Part shown: in pieces, positions 29,845 through 61,401 of the stretch
How the letters are laid out: each line of letters begins with the position of its first letter
How positions within the stretch are numbered: position 1 is the stretch's first letter
Assembly: GCF_030816725.1 (NCBI RefSeq)
Contig: NZ_JAUSYG010000001.1
Span: 1,860,001 to 1,924,000 of the forward strand
Origin: Pseudarthrobacter defluvii
Lineage (GTDB): Bacteria; Actinomycetota; Actinomycetes; Actinomycetales; Micrococcaceae
DNA: 64,000 nucleotides
Reading direction: 5' to 3'
Notes under the pieces: model-generated
The model's database searches: none
Told to the model about the DNA's origin: nothing
The model's input: only the letters and a program-made list of their open reading frames with translations
Program-made: the position numbers and the translations under genes

Positions 29845-31389
29845 TCAGGGTATGGGGCGCGGCGGCAGATTCCCCGTGGCCGGCCCCTGGATGACCCTGC
29901 CGTCCACATCGAACCGGGAGCCGTGGCAGGGGCAGTCCCATGTGCGGTCTCCCCGGTTGAAGCCGACCGTGCACCCCAGGTGGGTGCAGGTCGCGGACAC
30001 GGCGTGCATATCTCCGGCGGGATCCCGGTAGCAGGCCGTGCTGGTCCCGTCTGTTTCAATGACGGCGCCGTCACCAAGGCCCAGCTCCGCGACCCGCCGC
30101 GGGGAATCTGCCTTGGCGGCTTCCTCAGTCCCATTCGCGCCAGGCCCCTGCGCTGCCGGGACTGCCGGCGCCCCCGCTGCCGCTGTGGCCGGCGACGGGG
30201 CGCGGTTGCTGTCAAACAGAGCCGCCCATTCGTTGCGTGTGCCGTTGAGGAGATCTGCCAGCATCAGGGCCGCTGCCGTGCCGTTTGTCAGGCCCCATTT
30301 GCGCAGACCCGTGATGACGAAAGCATGCCGGCTCTCCGGGGTCAGCGGCCCGACGTAGGGCAGTCCGTCCAGCGGCAAGCCGTCCTGGGTGGACCAGCGG
30401 TAGGCCACCGTCCCGGCTCCGAAACGGCCCCGCGCGTAACGGGCCAGGCTGGCATGGCGCGGTGCAGGGTCCGCCTGCTCGCCGGCGGGATGGCCCTCGC
30501 CGCCCACCAGCAGGAAGGTCACCCCGTTCAGGCGGACCGTCAGCAGTGAACGCATGGGTTCGTCGGCGCTGATGAACGTGGCGTCTAAGGGCGGGGCGTC
30601 AACGGGCGCGGCGACGATGTAGGAGCGGTGCGGCCGGCACAATGCTTCGAACCGGCCATTGTCTCCGAAAGGAACATTCGTCGCCACCACCACGTCCTGG
30701 GCCCGCAGGGTCCCGTTTTCGGTGGCCACGATGACGGGCGTGCCCTCGCGCAGTTCCAGGGCGCGCGTCCGTTCCAGGACGAAGCTCCCGTCTCCGTCCA
30801 CCTTTCCAGCCAGTCCCTGGACGTACTGGACGGCATGAACCTGCGCCTGGCCATCGAACCTGACGGCGCCGGCCACGGCAAACGGCAGGGGCACATCGGC
30901 GGTGAAGGTTGACGGAAGGCCGAGACTGGCAGCAAGCCCTGCTTCTGCCTGAAGCTGCGGCAGCGAGTCACGGTCCGTGGCAAAGGTGTAGTTCGCTACC
31001 CGGCGGAAGCCGCAGGAAATGTTCTCCGCTGCCACCACCGCACCGATGTATTCCACTGCGGCTTGGTTCGCCAGTCCGTAGATGCGGGCAGCGGGCAGGC
31101 CATGACTGCGCAGCAGTTCTGTGTACGCAAGGCGGTGCAGGGACGTTACCTTGCCCGTGGTGTGCCCGGTCACGCCGGTGCCGATCCGGCCGGCTTCAAG
31201 GACCGCCACCGAGCGGCCCGAACGTTTCAGGGCCAGCGCTGCTGTCAACCCGGCCACCCCTCCGCCGATGATTGCCACGTCCACTTCCACGGTGCCGCGC
31301 AGTTCCGGGTAGTCGGTGGTGCCGGCGGTTGCCAGCCACAGGGAGAGGGGCCGCCCTTCAGGAGGGCCGGCAGCGGTTGCCTCTGACAT
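29845..31389 (-). CDS. FAD-dependent oxidoreductase fused to a Rieske [2Fe-2S] domain
   Basis: 514 residues. The N-terminal DAO-type FAD domain (about 1-400) has the dinucleotide motif [21 protein letters not shown] near residue 37 and [17 protein letters not shown] Pro/Ala-rich linker (about 400-440) leads to a C-terminal Rieske domain with CTHLGC and CPCHGS, the full set of two Cys and two His ligands. Fusions of this kind occur in several bacteria; the substrate is not known. No transmembrane segment or Tat signal. A dyad overlaps its ribosome binding site region. Confidence 0.88.
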
Positions 31390-31400
31390 CGTGTGCCGCC

Positions 31401-31416
31401 TCCCAACGTTTTGGGA
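31401..31416. promoter_or_regulatory. Operator-like dyad before the FAD/Rieske gene
   Basis: TCCCAA-CGTT-TTGGGA, a perfect 6-bp inverted repeat with a central CGTT, 12 bp upstream of the ATG. On the minus strand one arm overlaps the GGGAGG ribosome binding site, so a bound repressor or an RNA hairpin could limit expression. Confidence 0.35.
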
Positions 31417-31490
31417 TGATCATGCGCGCTTGCCCCGGGTAATGCAACGGGCCGTAAGGCCCGGCTGAGGCAGGCAACGTGCCGGTGCGC

Positions 31491-31496
31491 TAAAGT
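31491..31496 (+). promoter_or_regulatory. Candidate -10 box of the leuS attenuator transcript
   Basis: TAAAGT ends 6 bp before the ATG of the leader peptide at 31503. Transcription starting at that A would give a leaderless mRNA beginning with the leader peptide's start codon, which is common in actinobacteria. No clear -35 box. Confidence 0.45.
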
Positions 31497-31502
31497 AGAT
31501 CC

Positions 31503-31529
31503 ATGCGTGCGATCCTTCTGCTTAGTTAG
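31503..31529 (+). CDS. leuS leader peptide (8 residues, Leu-Leu-Leu)
   Basis: ATG CGT GCG ATC CTT CTG CTT AGT TAG encodes MRAILLLS with three leucine codons in a row. It lies upstream of leucyl-tRNA synthetase and is followed by a hairpin and a rho-independent terminator, the layout of an attenuation leader. No Shine-Dalgarno sequence precedes it, consistent with leaderless translation from the -10 box at 31491. Classical leuS attenuators have been described in some Streptomyces; here the call rests on the sequence layout. Confidence 0.75.
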   Translation: MRAILLLS

Positions 31530-31562
31530 CCGCCGGCTCCGATTATCGGACAGCTGAGCGGC
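31529..31562 (+). promoter_or_regulatory. leuS leader hairpin 1 (protector)
   Basis: Arms 31529-31538 and 31552-31562 can pair over about 10 bp with one bulged A and one G-U pair, enclosing a smaller CCGA-UUA-UCGG hairpin. The 5' arm starts at the leader stop codon, so a ribosome held at the Leu codons (31515-31523) would cover it. The released 3' arm could then pair GCUG (31553-31556) with CAGC (31562-31565), invading the terminator's 5' arm. Confidence 0.5.
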
Positions 31563-31587
31563 AGCCCCTCCATGGAGAGGGGCTTTT
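31563..31587 (+). terminator. leuS attenuator terminator
   Basis: Perfect 8-bp GC-rich stem, AGCCCCTC (31563-31570) with GAGGGGCT (31577-31584), 6-base loop, followed by a T run (31584-31587, then GTGTGT). It lies between the leader peptide and the leuS ribosome binding site. Confidence 0.8.
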
Positions 31588-31677
31588 GTGTGTCCGGGGC
31601 ATGGCGCCGGGCCGGCAGCAGGAGGATCAGGCCGTTATGGCAGCACAGATGCCGTAACAGAACAGAAGAGGGCAGCA

Positions 31678-34203
31678 GTGGGCGTTCAGCCGGAGACAGA
31701 GACCGGAACAGCAACAACAGTATCGGCGGAGCCTGAAGAGGGCACCTACAGTTTCACCGCCATGGAGGCCAAATGGCCCCAGGTGTGGGAAGACCTCAAG
31801 GTCTTCACCCCGGTGGACGATGGGTCGCGGGAGCGCCGCTACGTGCTTGACATGTTCCCGTACCCGTCCGGCGACCTCCACATGGGCCACGCCGAGGCGT
31901 TCGCCATGGGCGACGTGGTGGCGCGCTACCTGCGGCAAAAGGGCTACGACGTCCTGCACCCCATCGGCTGGGACTCCTTCGGCCTGCCCGCGGAGAACGC
32001 GGCCATCAAGCGCAACGCCCACCCCAGCGAGTGGACGTACGCCAACATCGACACCCAGGCAGCCTCCTTCAAGCGGTACGCGATCTCCGCCGACTGGTCG
32101 CGCCGGCTGCACACCTCTGATCCCGAGTACTACCGCTGGACGCAGTGGCTGTTCAAGCGCTTTTACGAGCGCGGCCTTGCCTACCGCAAGAATTCCCCGG
32201 TCAACTGGTGCCCCAAGGACCAGACCGTCCTGGCCAACGAGCAGGTTGTCAACGGCGCCTGCGAGCGCTGCGGCACCACCGTGACCAAGAAGTCCCTGAA
32301 CCAGTGGTACTTCAAGATCACCGACTACGCGGACCGCCTGCTGGATGACATGGACGAGCTCCGCGGCCACTGGCCCGAACGCGTCCTGGCCATGCAGAAG
32401 AACTGGATCGGCCGGTCCGAGGGTGCGCACGTGAAGTTCGTGATTGAGGCCGACGGCGGCAAGCCCGCCAAGGACGTCACGGTCTTCACCACCCGCCCTG
32501 ACACCCTGTACGGGGCAACATTCTTCGTGGTGGCAGCCGACGCGCCGCTCGCCGTCGAGCTCGTCACCGACGGGCACGCCGCCGCCCTGGACGAATACCG
32601 CGAACGGGTCAAGGCGCTCTCTGAGATCGAACGCCAGTCCACCGAGCGCGAGAAGACCGGTGTCTTCACCGGCCGTTACGCCATCAACCCGCTGAACGGT
32701 GAGAAGCTGCCCGTGTGGGCCGCCGACTACGTCCTGGCCGACTACGGCACGGGCGCCATCATGGCCGTCCCCGCGCACGACCAGCGTGACCTCGATTTCG
32801 CCCGTGCGTTCGACCTGCCCGTCCGCGCCGTCCTGGACACCGGTGAAGAGGATCCTGCCGTGTCCGGCACCGCCACCGCGGGGGAGGGCACCCTCATCAA
32901 CTCAGGTGAGCTGGACGGCCTGCCCAAGGGTGAGGCCATCCCGGCCGCCATTGCCATGCTGGAGAAGCAGGGGACCGGCGAGAAGTTCGTCAACTTCCGC
33001 CTCCGCGACTGGCTGCTCAGCCGCCAGCGCTTCTGGGGCACGCCAATCCCCATCATCCACTGCCCGTCCTGTGGCGAAGTTCCCGTCCCTGACGAGCAGC
33101 TCCCGGTCACCCTGCCCGCGGACCTCCGCGGTGAGGACCTGGCACCCAAGGGCACCTCGCCCCTGGCTGCGGCGGAGTCCTGGGTCAACGTGGAGTGCCC
33201 CACCTGCCACGGGCCGGCCAAGCGGGACACCGACACCATGGACACGTTCGTGGACTCGTCCTGGTACTTCCTGCGCTTCGTCTCGCCGCACTACACCGGG
33301 GGGCCCTTCGACCCGCAGAAGATCAATGACTGGATGCCGGTGGGCCAGTACGTGGGCGGTGTGGAGCACGCCATCCTCCACCTTCTGTACGCGCGCTTCT
33401 TCACCAAGGTCATCCACGACCTGGGCATGATCGATGCCGACGAACCGTTCAGTGCGCTGCTGAACCAGGGCCAGGTGCTCAACGGCGGCAAGGCCATGAG
33501 CAAGTCCCTGGGCAACGGCGTTGACCTCGGCGAGCAGCTGGACAAGTACGGCGTTGACGCTGTCCGCCTGACCATGGTGTTCGCGTCCCCGCCCGAGGAC
33601 GACGTGGACTGGGCCGACGTGTCGCCGTCCGGTTCCGCCAAGTTCCTGGCCCGGGCCTGGCGTCTGGCCCAGGACGTCACCAGTGAACCCGGTGTGGACG
33701 CCGCCACCGGAGACCGCGGGCTGCGTTCGGTCACGCACCGCACCATCGCCGACGCCGCCGAACTGCTGGACGCCAACAAGTTCAACGTGGTGGTGGCAAA
33801 GCTCATGGAGCTGGTCAACGCCACCCGCAAGGCGATTGACTCCGGTGCGGGCGCAGCGGATCCTGCAGTACGCGAAGCCGCCGAAGCGGTTGCCGTAATC
33901 CTCAGCCTGTTCGCGCCCTACACGGCCGAGGACATGTGGAACCTGCTGGGCCACCCCGCCTCCGTGGCCAACGCAGGCTGGCCCGTGCACGACCCCGCGC
34001 TCCTGGTCCAGGAGACGGTCACCGCCGTTGTCCAGGTGCAGGGCAAGGTCCGCGACCGTCTGGAAGTGTCCCCTGACGTATCCGAGGACCAGCTCCGCGA
34101 GCTGGCCCTGGCGTCGGAAAACGTCCAGCGTGCCCTTGACGGCCGGGGCATCCGGACAGTGATCGTCCGTGCCCCTAAGCTGGTCAACATCGTTCCGGCA
34201 TAG
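31678..34203 (+). CDS. leuS: Leucyl-tRNA synthetase
   Basis: 841 residues from GTG 31678 with GAGGG five bases upstream; the frame is open back to 31588, but the extra residues lie in the leader. Charges tRNA-Leu. Class I motifs: HIGH as [15 protein letters not shown] near residue 60, and KMSKS as [12 protein letters not shown] near residue 603. The CP1 editing domain includes [14 protein letters not shown]. The Cys sites [15 protein letters not shown]...CERCG and HCPSCGEVP...CPTCHG suggest zinc binding. Preceded by an attenuator with a Leu leader peptide. Confidence 0.96.
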
Positions 34204-38387: not shown

Positions 38388-40526
38388 GTGGCAGTGGGAA
38401 CGGGCGGGGACAGAGGGCAGGGGAGGCGGGTGGCGGAATCCTGCGGAAATCGAACGCGCAGTCCCTGGAACCGGTTCGTCGAATCTGCGGTCCAGGGCAT
38501 CGGCACAGAGCCCACGGAGGCGGCCGGCTCAGGAACAGTGCAGCCCCCTGAAACAACTTCACCTGGAACAACGTCCCCTTCCGGACCGTCACCCGCAACA
38601 ACCCGGGCACGGCTGCACACGCCAGTACTGCCCATACGCCGCCACACGGTCCTGCAGGGATACTGGCTGAAGGGATACTGGACCAAGGGCCTGGACCGCC
38701 TGCGCCAACGGATTGCCGGAAGCCATACGGCCAAGGAAGCAGCTGACCCGAATTGTGCAGGACCACGGCGGCGTACGGACCTCCGGCTTGTCCTCCCCGC
38801 AGCACTGGTTTGGGGCGCCTCAGTGGCAGGGCTTTGGCTGCCGCCTGCGGGGCTGGCCGCCCTGTGCTGCCTCCTAGTGGCACTCGGCGGGCTCATCCTG
38901 GCCCGCGCCGCGAACGGCCGGCGGACTCGCAAGGGAAGTGCCGCCGTCGGCCGCACGTATACGCCGGGGACCTTCGGGGGCAGGGGGCGGAGTTTCCGGG
39001 CCGCGCTGGGCGTTTCCCTGCTGCTGGGCGCTGCCGCCGCAGCCCATTCTGCAACAGCGTCCAGCCAGCGGTTCGATGGGCCCCTCGCCGAGGCGATCGC
39101 GGCGGGCAGGTCGGCCGTCGCGGTCGTGGAGGTTGCAGGAAACCCCCGGACCGTGGGCGGCTTCGGGGAGACGTCGGGACGCTGGGCGGTGCCGGTGTGG
39201 ACGCGGGAGGTGACCGCCGGCGGTGTCCTGGTGCGGACCCGCGCCCGGCTCGTGGTGATGGGCGGGCAGGAGTGGGCAGGCGCGGTGCCCGGGCAGACGC
39301 TGCGCGCAGCGGGCAAGCTGCGGCCCGCGGATCCCGGAGAGCAGGACGCGGGAACCCTGGCCGCTTCGACGGCTCCCGGCAACGCCGCCGGCGGCTCCGC
39401 GCTGGACGCCGGAGCAAGGGAACTGCGCGGGCGTTTTGTTTCCGCCGCCGCGTTCCTGCCACCTGATGCCCGCGGGCTGCTTCCGGGAATGGTCACCGGT
39501 GATACCAGCGCCTTGGATGACGGTCTGGGCAATGCGATGAAAGCCGTGGGCATGACGCACCTGACGGCGGTCAGCGGGGCAAATTGCAGCCTCGTGCTGG
39601 GGGCGCTGTTGGTGTTGTGCCGTCGCTTGCGGCTGCCCCGCGCGCCTGCTGCTGCAGCAGCCCTTGCCGGCCTGGGCCTGTTTGTTGTCCTGGTGGGACC
39701 TGATGCCAGCGTCCTGCGCGCGGCGCTGATGGGCGCCATCGGTGTCGCCTCCCTGGCCGGCGGTCGCTCAGGACGTGGCCTCAGCTTCCTCTGCCTCGCC
39801 GTCACCGGGCTTCTGTTGGCTGACCCTGCCCTGGGCTCCAGTTTTGGATTCCTGCTGTCCGTGCTGGCCACACTGGGGATCATCCTCCTGGGACGGCGGA
39901 TCATGGGCTGGGTTCCCGAGGCAGTGCCGCGGTGGCTTGTTGCAGCGGTCGCGGTCCCGTTGTCGGCGCAATTGCTGTGTGGCCCCGTCATCATTCTCCT
40001 GCAGCCACAGTTCGCGACCTATTCCTTGCTGGCTAACGTAGCCGTCTCGCCCCTGGTTGCCCCCGTCACCCTCCTGGGCACCGTTGCGGTGCCCCTGGTG
40101 ATCGTGCTGCCCTGGGCGGCAGCGGCGCTGATAGCTGTGGCCGGGATGTTCAGTGCAGGGGTGGCAGCAGTTTCCCGCTTTGCCGCACAACTGCCAGGGG
40201 CCGCACTTCCGTGGCCGGAGGGGATACCGGGCTTGCTCTCCATGGTGATGTTGTCCGCCGTGACGCTTGCCACCGTATGGGCGGCGGCCCGGCCCCTGCA
40301 GGTCGTCCGCAGGGTAAGGGAGGCACACACCGCAGCTGTCCGGTTGATCGAGCTGGTGGAACTGCGGTTGCAGCGGCTCCGGCGCGCCTGCGGCTTGGAC
40401 CGGGGACGCAGACATGGCAGGCTGGGATACTGCAATAACACCTCCGGAAGGGACCTTCGATGGCCGCTGCGCAAAAGCGAGCAACCCGCACCACGGCATC
40501 GAATACCGCCTCCTGGCGGGATGTAG
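38388..40526 (+). CDS. comEC: ComEC/Rec2-family membrane protein without metallo-beta-lactamase domain
   Basis: 712 residues with a long unusual hydrophilic N terminus (about 1-110), then hydrophobic segments, an OB-like DUF4131 region, and the competence core (MTHLTAVSGANCSLVLGALL and GPDASVLRAALMGAIGVASL). The core forms the inner-membrane DNA channel. The C-terminal metallo-beta-lactamase domain (HxHxDH) found in many ComEC proteins is absent; the protein ends in a basic tail that overlaps holA by 67 bases. GTG start with AAGGAG. Together with comEA it suggests DNA uptake, although no pilus genes are in this window. Confidence 0.85.
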   Translation: MAVGTGGDRGQGRRVAESCGNRTRSPWNRFVESAVQGIGTEPTEAAGSGTVQPPETTSPGTTSPSGPSPATTRARLHTPVLPIRRHTVLQGYWLKGYWTKGLDRLRQRIAGSHTAKEAADPNCAGPRRRTDLRLVLPAALVWGASVAGLWLPPAGLAALCCLLVALGGLILARAANGRRTRKGSAAVGRTYTPGTFGGRGRSFRAALGVSLLLGAAAAAHSATASSQRFDGPLAEAIAAGRSAVAVVEVAGNPRTVGGFGETSGRWAVPVWTREVTAGGVLVRTRARLVVMGGQEWAGAVPGQTLRAAGKLRPADPGEQDAGTLAASTAPGNAAGGSALDAGARELRGRFVSAAAFLPPDARGLLPGMVTGDTSALDDGLGNAMKAVGMTHLTAVSGANCSLVLGALLVLCRRLRLPRAPAAAAALAGLGLFVVLVGPDASVLRAALMGAIGVASLAGGRSGRGLSFLCLAVTGLLLADPALGSSFGFLLSVLATLGIILLGRRIMGWVPEAVPRWLVAAVAVPLSAQLLCGPVIILLQPQFATYSLLANVAVSPLVAPVTLLGTVAVPLVIVLPWAAAALIAVAGMFSAGVAAVSRFAAQLPGAALPWPEGIPGLLSMVMLSAVTLATVWAAARPLQVVRRVREAHTAAVRLIELVELRLQRLRRACGLDRGRRHGRLGYCNNTSGRDLRWPLRKSEQPAPRHRIPPPGGM

Positions 40527-41476
40527 CTCCGGACCGGATCGTGCTGGTGAGCGGGCCGGAAGAGTACCTGGGCATCAGGGCCATGGACAGGATCCGTTCG
40601 CAGGTCAGGGAGGCTTCGCCGGACGTTGAACTGAGCCGCATGAACGCTGCCTGCTATGAACCTGGCGCCCTCACCATGCAGGTGAGTCCGTCACTGTTCG
40701 GCGAGAGCAAGCTCATTGAGGTGGAAGCTGTGGAGGGCATGAACGACGCCTTCCTCGCGGATGCCCTCGCCTACCTCCAGCACCCGGAACAGGACGCCGT
40801 CGTCGTACTGCGCCACGCCGGGGGAGTACGCGGCAAAAAACTCCTGGATGCCGTCAGGAAGGGCGGTTGGCCCGTGGTGGATTGCCAGCCGCTGAAGAAG
40901 GATGCGGACAAGGTCCAATTCGTCACTGCAGAGTTCAGGGCAGCCGGGCGGCGGATTAACCAGGACGCCGTACAGGCCCTGGTCAATGCTGTGGGTGCAG
41001 ACCTGTCGGAACTCGCCGCCGCCTGCGCACAACTGATAGCCGATGCGGGCAGCACCGTCACTACCGAAACGGTGGACAAGTACTACGGCGGCCGAGTCGA
41101 AGCCACGGCGTTCAAGGTGGCCGACGCCGCAATGGCAGGAAACGCGCCGGTGGCACTGTCCACGCTGCGTCACGCCCTCGCAACCGGCGCAGACCCGGTG
41201 CCCCTGGTGGCAGCCCTCGCATCGAAGCTGCGAACAGTGGCCCGGGTTGCAGGGGCCTCCGGATCGTCCGCGCAGATTGCAGCGGAGCTGGGCATGCAGC
41301 CTTGGCTGGTGGAGCAGGCGCAGCGGGACGTCCGGCGCTGGACCCCGGAAGGCCTGGTGCGGTCAATCCAGGCCACGGCGGAGGCTGACGCACAGGTCAA
41401 GGGCCTGTCCCGGGACCCGGTCTACGCGGTGGAACATGCTGTGACCGTCATAGCGATGTCCGTCCAGGGCCGATAG
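40460..41476 (+). CDS. holA: DNA polymerase III delta subunit
   Basis: 338 residues; clamp loader subunit that opens the sliding clamp. The domain I pattern IVLVSGPEEYLGIRAMDRIRSQ lies near residue 27, with the beta-clamp contact region ADALAYLQHPEQDAVVVLRH and helical C terminus following. ATG 40460 preceded by GGAAGGGA. It begins inside the end of comEC in another frame; the comEC-holA-rpsT cluster is common in bacteria. Convergent with rpsT. Confidence 0.9.
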   Translation: MAAAQKRATRTTASNTASWRDVAPDRIVLVSGPEEYLGIRAMDRIRSQVREASPDVELSRMNAACYEPGALTMQVSPSLFGESKLIEVEAVEGMNDAFLADALAYLQHPEQDAVVVLRHAGGVRGKKLLDAVRKGGWPVVDCQPLKKDADKVQFVTAEFRAAGRRINQDAVQALVNAVGADLSELAAACAQLIADAGSTVTTETVDKYYGGRVEATAFKVADAAMAGNAPVALSTLRHALATGADPVPLVAALASKLRTVARVAGASGSSAQIAAELGMQPWLVEQAQRDVRRWTPEGLVRSIQATAEADAQVKGLSRDPVYAVEHAVTVIAMSVQGR

Positions 41477-59511: not shown

Positions 59512-59517
59512 TACCCT
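59512..59517 (+). promoter_or_regulatory. Candidate -10 box for the leuA leader
   Basis: TACCCT, ending 6 bp before GTG 59524 of the leader peptide. A start there would give a leaderless transcript, the same geometry as for the leuS leader. No good -35 box. Confidence 0.4.
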
Positions 59518-59523
59518 CAAAGT

Positions 59524-59580
59524 GTGCGTGCAGAGCTCCTTCTCCTTAGCTGCCGCGGCGAGGCCACAGACGCTATCTAG
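59524..59580 (+). CDS. leuA leader peptide (18 residues, four Leu codons in a row)
   Basis: GTG CGT GCA GAG CTC CTT CTC CTT AGC TGC CGC GGC GAG GCC ACA GAC GCT ATC TAG, giving VRAELLLLSCRGEATDAI. Four consecutive leucine codons precede the conserved SCRGEA segment. It lies 81 bp upstream of leuA. Leu leader elements of this type (the LEU element) are known upstream of leuA in most actinobacteria. No Shine-Dalgarno sequence. Confidence 0.8.
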   Translation: MRAELLLLSCRGEATDAI

Positions 59581-59603
59581 CGCACGGCCCACCCTCGCTG
59601 CGG
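59553..59603 (+). promoter_or_regulatory. Long-range RNA helix of the leuA leader (LEU element)
   Basis: The 5' arm (59553-59563, CCGCGGCGAGG) lies within the leader codons for Cys-Arg-Gly-Glu and pairs with the 3' arm (59593-59603, CCTCGCTGCGG) over 11 bp with one G-U. A ribosome stalled at the Leu codons (59536-59547) would overlap the 5' arm. No intrinsic terminator follows, so control may act on translation initiation or by Rho. Confidence 0.6.
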
Positions 59604-59634
59604 AGTTTGTGTTGCCCGGCCACCCTTTCACTGA

Positions 59635-61401
<1,767 letters not shown>

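Follow-up and report, generated by a model that had tools for sequence, protein, structure and literature searches.

A leaderless-type leucine leader with abutting hairpins upstream of leuS in Pseudarthrobacter defluvii and other actinobacteria, a probable transcription attenuator

How leuS might be adjusted to the supply of leucine is the question raised by a short segment (31491-31590, forward strand) of the 64,000-nucleotide stretch of Pseudarthrobacter defluvii DNA analysed here (the window), in which a TAAAGT hexamer, six nucleotides, an ATG, a short open reading frame (ORF) encoding MRAILLLS, a first hairpin (hairpin 1) and a terminator succeed one another, all upstream of leuS. The -10-like hexamer was read from the sequence at 31491-31496 (+) and predicts a transcription start at or next to 31503, where the eight-codon leader peptide ORF begins (31503-31529, +; ATG CGT GCG ATC CTT CTG CTT AGT TAG); this ORF, with its leaderless-type start, was recognized from the sequence and by comparison within the genus. 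Codon counts in the genus and in distant leaders single out CTT CTG CTT (Leu5-Leu7; 31515-31523, +) as the putative control codons. A GGAGG-like ribosome binding site is absent from the six nucleotides preceding the leader ATG, and no sigma-70-type -35/-10 pair passes a promoter scan of the leuS leader region. Hairpin 1 (31529-31562, +), identified by folding and by covariation of aligned pairs, comprises 14 pairs with small bulges, has the third base of the TAG stop as its first base and starts five nucleotides past the last Leu codon. It is adjoined without a spacer by an eight-pair intrinsic terminator hairpin (31563-31584, +; pattern scan, fold and covariation) and then, counted from 31584, by TTTTGTGTGT; the U-rich tract read from the sequence, TTTTGTGTGTCC, spans 31584-31595 (+), and the genus rows listed carry TTTTGTGTGT or differ from it by one base. 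Across 31380-31700, the pattern scan found one terminator against 0.1 expected, and the 88-nt leader RNA folds at -38.6 kcal/mol (z -2.75), an energy as low being reached by one of 200 shuffles. A preliminary description of this DNA had reported an ORF MRAILLLS with three Leu codons, six nucleotides past a -10-like box and lacking a ribosome binding site, as well as a GC-rich terminator with a T run preceding leuS; the sequence agrees with the former, and the single terminator of the scan and the fold with the latter, while its plain 10-bp hairpin 1 is replaced by the bulged 14-pair structure.

Downstream of the leader, a Shine-Dalgarno-like GAGGG read from the sequence (31668-31672, +) precedes leuS (31678-34203, +), which encodes leucine--tRNA ligase (TIGR00396, 966.6 bits, cut-off 548.4) and has a GTG start found at the same position in close relatives. 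The ORF on the other side of the leader (29845-31389, -) has matches, each of them under cut-off, to FAD oxidoreductase models and, at its C-terminus, to Rieske models; because it runs divergently, we assigned the leader to leuS. The leader has no Rfam match up to an E-value of 1 in 30500-32500, so no T-box or other Rfam riboswitch matches there, and its sequence is without a match in the plasmid collection.

The leader is present in all 64 same-genus leuS loci (63 genomes), a count made up of 59 loci from a genus set of 61 searched genomes, of which G027 and G056 had no leuS locus among the matches listed, and five from the family search, with G002 represented in both. Codon 7 is CTT in all 64, codon 6 is CTG in 63 and codon 5 is CTT or CTC in 63, and the start codon is ATG in 63 and GTG in one. 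The peptide MRAILLLS is identical in 52 loci, the remaining 12 having at least two Leu, the number that the search pattern demanded. The ORF has no fixed end, since the stop codon is lost in five of the 64 loci (L096, L097, L098, L106 and L149); in these it is replaced by CAG or AAG and the ORF enters hairpin 1, like distant leaders of the xPR type.

The family search covered 120 genomes, 119 of them with leuS; 109 loci were read besides that of the own genome, nine of the 119 being left out. Using a leader pattern of a short ORF with leaderless-type spacing (TAnnnT 5-8 nt before the start) and at least two Leu, 60 of the 109 loci have a leader, and an RNA model recovers 12 among the other 49, bringing the number to 72; three of the 12 are weak (L154, L159 and L168; E 5e-4 to 6e-3) and were accepted on sequence reading. 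Leaders occur in 20 of 31 family genera. By pattern and model, such a leader is missing from the other 37 loci, namely all 36 read of 11 genera plus L240. The family peptides vary (MHAILLLS, MNVALLLT, MTALLLLR, MPRALLLT, MDALLLR) and mostly keep their length and Leu positions; across 19 genera the Leu codons near the ORF end are kept while other codons change, with exceptions including g20, g15 and g23. The Leu run is partly lost in the family leaders g20, g15 and g24, and a single Leu is found in g23 (CTA) and in L154, L159 and L168 (CTT). These last three, all from one genus, encode MAYFLG followed by a stop and then directly the terminator: hairpin 1 is missing, and the Leu codon and the 5-nt offset are kept. 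Conservation in relatives, to which the preliminary description had tied its proposal, is thus borne out for the Leu codons, the start geometry and both hairpins.

Base-pair changes in the two hairpins were evaluated in an alignment of 48 diverse leaders (A1), covering hairpin 1 and the terminator, against 500 shuffles. Paired cells amount to 91.9% versus 82.6% in the shuffles and covariation to 0.298 versus 0.143, figures that lean toward structure, since related sequences were aligned and member folds guided the choice of structure; on four of five measures no shuffle out of 500 reaches the real alignment, and on the fifth, the number of pair types, eight do. Both sides have changed in 12 of 17 pairs (seven of nine in hairpin 1, five of eight in the terminator), and sliding the partner by 1-3 columns lowers pairing to 44-54%. 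The last base of the stop codon is G opposite C in 44 of 45 cases and A opposite T in three of three, that is, G-C has become A-U in three of the 48. The inner pairs of hairpin 1 covary freely and its two outer C-G pairs (A1 columns 49-50 and 85-86) are invariant in all 48; the G's of these invariant pairs could alternatively pair with C's of the terminator arm. A pairing between the 5' arm of hairpin 1 and the 3' arm of the terminator (1:4) was rejected on reading the alignment, in which A-U changes at columns 48-87 are unmatched at column 117.

The spacing of the parts is narrowly distributed. Among 147 unique leaders, 6 nt separate TAnnnT from the start codon in 124, 7 nt in 22 and 8 nt in one, of which just the concentration at 6 nt is informative because the search pattern demanded 5-8 nt. 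Two adjacent hairpins are predicted in 142 of the 147, the other five falling outside the terminator pattern. Hairpin 1 measures 18 to 62 nt in these 142 leaders; in 78 of them the terminator follows it without a gap, and in the others 1 nt (56 leaders), 2 nt (seven) or 3 nt (one) lies between the two (0-1 nt in 134). The offset from the last Leu codon to the beginning of hairpin 1 is 5 nt in 116 leaders and 4 nt in 18 (4-7 nt in 137). Control codons that overlap the 5' arm of hairpin 1 are the rule in classical trp-type leaders; such overlap is absent from 137 of the 142. Of the 147 unique leaders, 125 have CTT as their final Leu codon, 12 have CTA, eight CTC and two CTG. In the distant leaders CTT comes last in 25 of 31, versus a share of 1.6% among the Leu codons of their leuS genes, a comparison whose binomial P treats related leaders as independent. 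CTT accounts for four of the 69 Leu codons of the window leuS and for 20 of 121 in four other window ORFs. The last CTT (codon 7) is the probable sensor codon of the leuS leader. The mRNA entry of the ribosome lies at roughly +11 to +12, counted from the first base of the P site; when the A site holds the last Leu codon, this entry would fall at the foot of hairpin 1 and therefore, once the hairpin has folded, at the foot of the terminator.

Pairing that might compete with the terminator was sought in several ways. In a permutation test that keeps hairpin 1 (111 leaders, 18 genera), the real pairing of its 3' arm with the terminator 5' arm is lower than the permuted one (0.27 versus 0.31 by genus, P 0.054) and its energy is weaker (-4.1 versus -5.4 kcal/mol, P 0.0008). 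An edge scan, in which RNA upstream of the ribosome edge is removed and the best edge taken, places eight of eight E. coli attenuators above chance (0.61-0.87 versus 0.29-0.46 in shuffles), the fraction of shuffles as high being below 0.05 in four, 0.067-0.083 in three and 0.15 for hisL. Applied to 62 actinobacterial leaders (at most two per genus plus the window), the same scan gives a mean of 0.26 versus 0.37 in shuffles, with the fraction below 0.05 in one leader and below 0.15 in two, a comparison in which the controls have the advantage of 2-12 edge positions along the control-codon cluster versus three. Fixed edges at three ribosome positions leave 0, 1 and 3 of 142 leaders below 0.05; with the last control codon as the edge, this test also puts three of the eight E. 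coli controls (hisL, leuL and ilvL) under chance, which we think comes from an edge placed too far downstream. For the window leader the values are 0.41 versus 0.42 by chance in the edge scan and 0.41 versus 0.33 with fixed edges. Permutations, shuffles and alignment yield no supported pairing of the hairpin 1 3' arm with the terminator beyond the GG:CC noted above, which is almost invariant and so lies outside the reach of covariation.

These features make it very likely that the leuS leader is a leucine-responsive, that is leucine-sensing, transcription attenuator. Transcription would start at or next to the leader AUG, and a 70S ribosome would therefore load on the bare 5' end and read the eight codons. 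With ample charged tRNA-Leu, the ribosome would finish and depart, the terminator would fold and transcription would end near 31590; with tRNA-Leu short, the ribosome would wait at a Leu codon, likeliest the last, rare CTT, and RNA polymerase would continue into leuS. How the stall is passed on is a more tentative matter, and we put at slightly under an even chance the proposal that the ribosome itself acts where hairpin 1 meets the terminator, no competing antiterminator being involved. Hairpin 1 would stow the intervening RNA, a ribosome whose A site holds the last Leu codon would have its mRNA entry at the junction, and, parked there, it would keep the base of the terminator open. We favour this reading because it would account for an offset that is fixed, hairpins that abut, an antiterminator that is missing, a last codon that is rare, and three relatives that lack hairpin 1 yet keep everything else; leucine-responsive attenuation as a whole is quite probably the best explanation of the locus. 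Weighing against it are the stop codons lost in five genus loci, the 37 family loci with no such leader and the 94 of 246 class genomes that the RNA model does not match. Against junction action stand the invariant GG:CC, a remnant that the classical model could use, the antiterminators drawn or argued in related leaders, and mutation results from S. coelicolor, as given in the accessible parts of PMC1262725 and PMC11857589.

Hairpin 1 could instead be the antiterminator by steric clash, impeding terminator closure within the RNA exit channel while it is intact and abutting; a ribosome moving past the Leu codons would then melt hairpin 1 and bring about termination, and a starved one would halt just short of it. 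The abutment of 0-1 nt in 134 of 142 leaders, the failure of the edge scan to find pairing competition and the entry of the xPR-type leader ORF into the hairpin 1 5' arm all suit this idea, which we nevertheless consider unlikely: L154, L159 and L168 are without hairpin 1 yet keep the rest, and the gene would be on without any ribosome, whereas we know of no attenuator with its gene on in the absence of a ribosome. Similarly improbable is classical attenuation, in which a stalled ribosome would cover the hairpin 1 5' arm and the freed GCGG 3' arm would pair with CCCC of the terminator. The near-invariance of GG in hairpin 1 and CC in the terminator speaks for it, as do the antiterminators drawn for Streptomyces leuS (PMC1262725) and argued for C. 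glutamicum ilvBNC (PMC11857589) in the available portions of those papers; the pairing itself, however, lies below hairpin-preserving permutations and below shuffles (one of 62 under 0.05). The preliminary description had chosen this mechanism, with GCUG:CAGC as the antiterminator. In the window, 31553-31556 could form that pairing with 31562-31565, and a ribosome placed on the last Leu codon gives a value of 0.41 versus 0.33 by chance (fraction 0.28), but GCUG:CAGC is found in 14 of the 64 genus leaders and in none of 55 other family leaders; the geometry differs as well, the Leu codons preceding hairpin 1 rather than lying inside its 5' arm. It is more improbable still that the leader acts on leuS without codon-based leucine sensing, for example via a protein or growth rate. 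In the related ilvB leader of S. coelicolor, replacing codons had no consequence, according to the part of PMC1262725 at hand, but the retention of Leu codons near the ORF end across 19 genera while others change, some exceptions aside, and the Ile codons that stand in their place before cimA both argue for sensing through codons.

Beyond the family, 31 of 96 further loci have a leader by pattern (named scan and class search, the upstream DNA being shortened in some); a pattern match at L052 was discarded as dubious. Distant peptides include MRRTLLLT and MRSQILLLRQPR in Nocardioides, MRSATLLLSGPRRP in Nonomuraea and MHRQELLT in Microlunatus. Searched against the own genome, RNA model R1 finds the leuS leader with 73.8 bits (E 8.6e-18) and, as next best, a match with E 1.65; no further convincing copy was found there. 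Because the leader is present at all genus loci, shows covariation in both hairpins and scores so highly in its own genome, we judge from the sequence comparison that it is not a chance feature. R1 layout matches, which include cimA and ilvB leaders and not leuS leaders alone, occur in 152 of 246 genomes of a class sample (E<=0.01), representing 74 of 103 genera, and at E<=1e-6 in at least 107 genomes among the matches listed; 94 of the 246 have no R1 match. In G189, G201, G212, G248 and G354, the single match among those listed has cimA behind it. The best 29 class loci besides that of the window (L294-L322) contain 25 readable leaders, of which 21 have a longest following ORF that is leuS-like by eye; in the other four the longest ORF is in another frame. 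Two of the class genomes, G216 and G340, match with E 1.6e-14 and 2.3e-14 and encode the peptide MRAVRLLLSEPR, which is the printed LeuL2. A match at 40834-40930 (-) in the search of the window (E 2.6e-4) lies antisense inside the ORF 40460-41476, has no leader and was taken as chance; it is not among the genome-search matches listed, and because of it we regard R1 E-values near 1e-4 as unsafe. One genome, G386, has two leuS genes (L302 and L341), both above the TIGR00396 cut-off and each with its own Leu leader.

The gene behind 20 further class regions is cimA in 12 (TIGR00977), ilvB in five (TIGR00118) and leuS in three (TIGR00396), all above the curated cut-off. The cimA leaders of other actinobacteria (L324, L325, L328, L329, L331, L332, L334, L335, L337, L338 and L342) carry isoleucine, as in VQRTAIIIP, VLHHVIIIR, VAQALIIG and MTFCLIIT, and share the hairpin layout; ATT closes the Ile codons in 10 of the 11 measured. 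Across the 14 measured cimA (11) and ilvB (three) leaders the offset is 3-7 nt (5 in six) and the gap 0-1 nt throughout, and none of the 14 gives a positive antiterminator test. An ilvB leader is also visible by eye in the own genome (L343), where MTIVTAGTVVVLTKRVAP and a stop, with the codons GTC GTC GTC CTT, are followed after 5 nt by a hairpin and an abutting terminator. It is conceivable, though on balance somewhat doubtful, that a widespread actinobacterial design stands before leuS (Leu), cimA (Ile) and ilvB (branched-chain) and switches without an antiterminator: a leaderless micro-ORF ending in a control codon, as a rule a U-ending one of low usage in these genomes, would bring the starved ribosome to the base of a terminator-abutting hairpin, and both would block closure of the terminator. 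Among the matches listed from the open full-text literature, citramalate synthase, leader peptide and attenuation are named together in work on a methanogen.

Elements of this kind are known, since LeuL2 of Streptomyces is in print as leaderless (PMC8079986, as far as the text is available): both leucine attenuation upstream of leuS and a leaderless start of the leader have already been described there. In S. lividans TK24, leuL2 precedes leuS, encodes the peptide MRAVRLLLSEPR and has a leaderless start taken from transcript data, and leuS leaders are predicted for S. coelicolor and S. avermitilis, with antiterminators drawn for two Streptomyces leuS leaders (Seliverstov 2005, PMC1262725), in the portions of these papers that could be seen. 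According to the same part of PMC1262725, altering codons was without effect in S. coelicolor ilvB, and in leuA the outcome did not fit classical attenuation. The Streptomyces leuL2 resembles the present leader in its gene and in LLL followed by a hairpin and U run, and its leaderless start has a predicted counterpart here; it differs, in what is accessible of its description, in having 12 codons and an ORF that enters hairpin 1, in contrast to eight codons ending at the hairpin's first base. Homology in sequence and structure is indicated by the R1 matches in the two genomes that encode LeuL2. The preliminary description had called the leader unusual, a view contradicted by the recurrence of its start geometry in relatives and by the printed Streptomyces case, so that of that account the Leu-rich leader, the leaderless-type start geometry and the terminator stand, and the classical antiterminator exchange and the unusual status lack support. 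What appears new, as far as our searches of the open full-text literature reach, is the breadth of occurrence, the way the hairpins abut, the negative outcome of the antiterminator test, and isoleucine leaders before cimA.

The 'fast' attenuator of C. glutamicum ilvBNC, for which an antiterminator is argued from mutants, is likewise near-leaderless, its control codons lying near a hairpin in contact with the terminator, but its antiterminator and terminator share a GCC trinucleotide, whereas the hairpins here abut with no shared bases (PMC11857589, accessible text). The E. coli trp-type attenuators (thrL, trpL, hisL, leuL, pheL, ilvL, ivbL and pheM) have in common with the leuS leader a residue-rich leader peptide and a terminator before the gene; in the same test, their terminator 5' arm pairs upstream above chance, in contrast to the actinobacterial leaders, which fall below it. 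Polycysteine leaderless attenuators of mycobacteria were reportedly described by Canestrari in 2020. These too use a leaderless short ORF as an amino-acid sensor; they differ in sensing cysteine, and the available part of PMC13236596 gives translation attenuation for the cysteine genes, where the leuS leader has an intrinsic terminator. If junction action is correct, ribosome-mediated attenuation would need no two competing folds, exact placement of the ribosome being sufficient; a compact amino-acid sensor of about 90 nt would result, the rare last codon would be explained, and cimA with its isoleucine leaders would be added to the genes so controlled. Even if classical attenuation proves right, the element would represent leuS control in many actinobacteria, where the open full-text literature, in its accessible parts, describes Streptomyces alone.

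The LEU element of leuA is a further Leu leader before a leucine gene, and has, in the accessible part of PMC1262725, a pseudoknot and no obvious terminator, unlike the leuS leader with its terminator. Assignment of the leuS leader to this element was accordingly rejected, a terminator being present and the gene being leuS and not leuA. The window contains a second Leu leader, with leaderless-type spacing, at 59512-59664, in which TACCCT and six nucleotides precede a GTG at 59524, VRAELLLLSCRGEATDAI and a stop, and then leuA (ATG 59662); it scores weakly with R1 (13.4 bits) and, having no T run, looks like the known LEU element.
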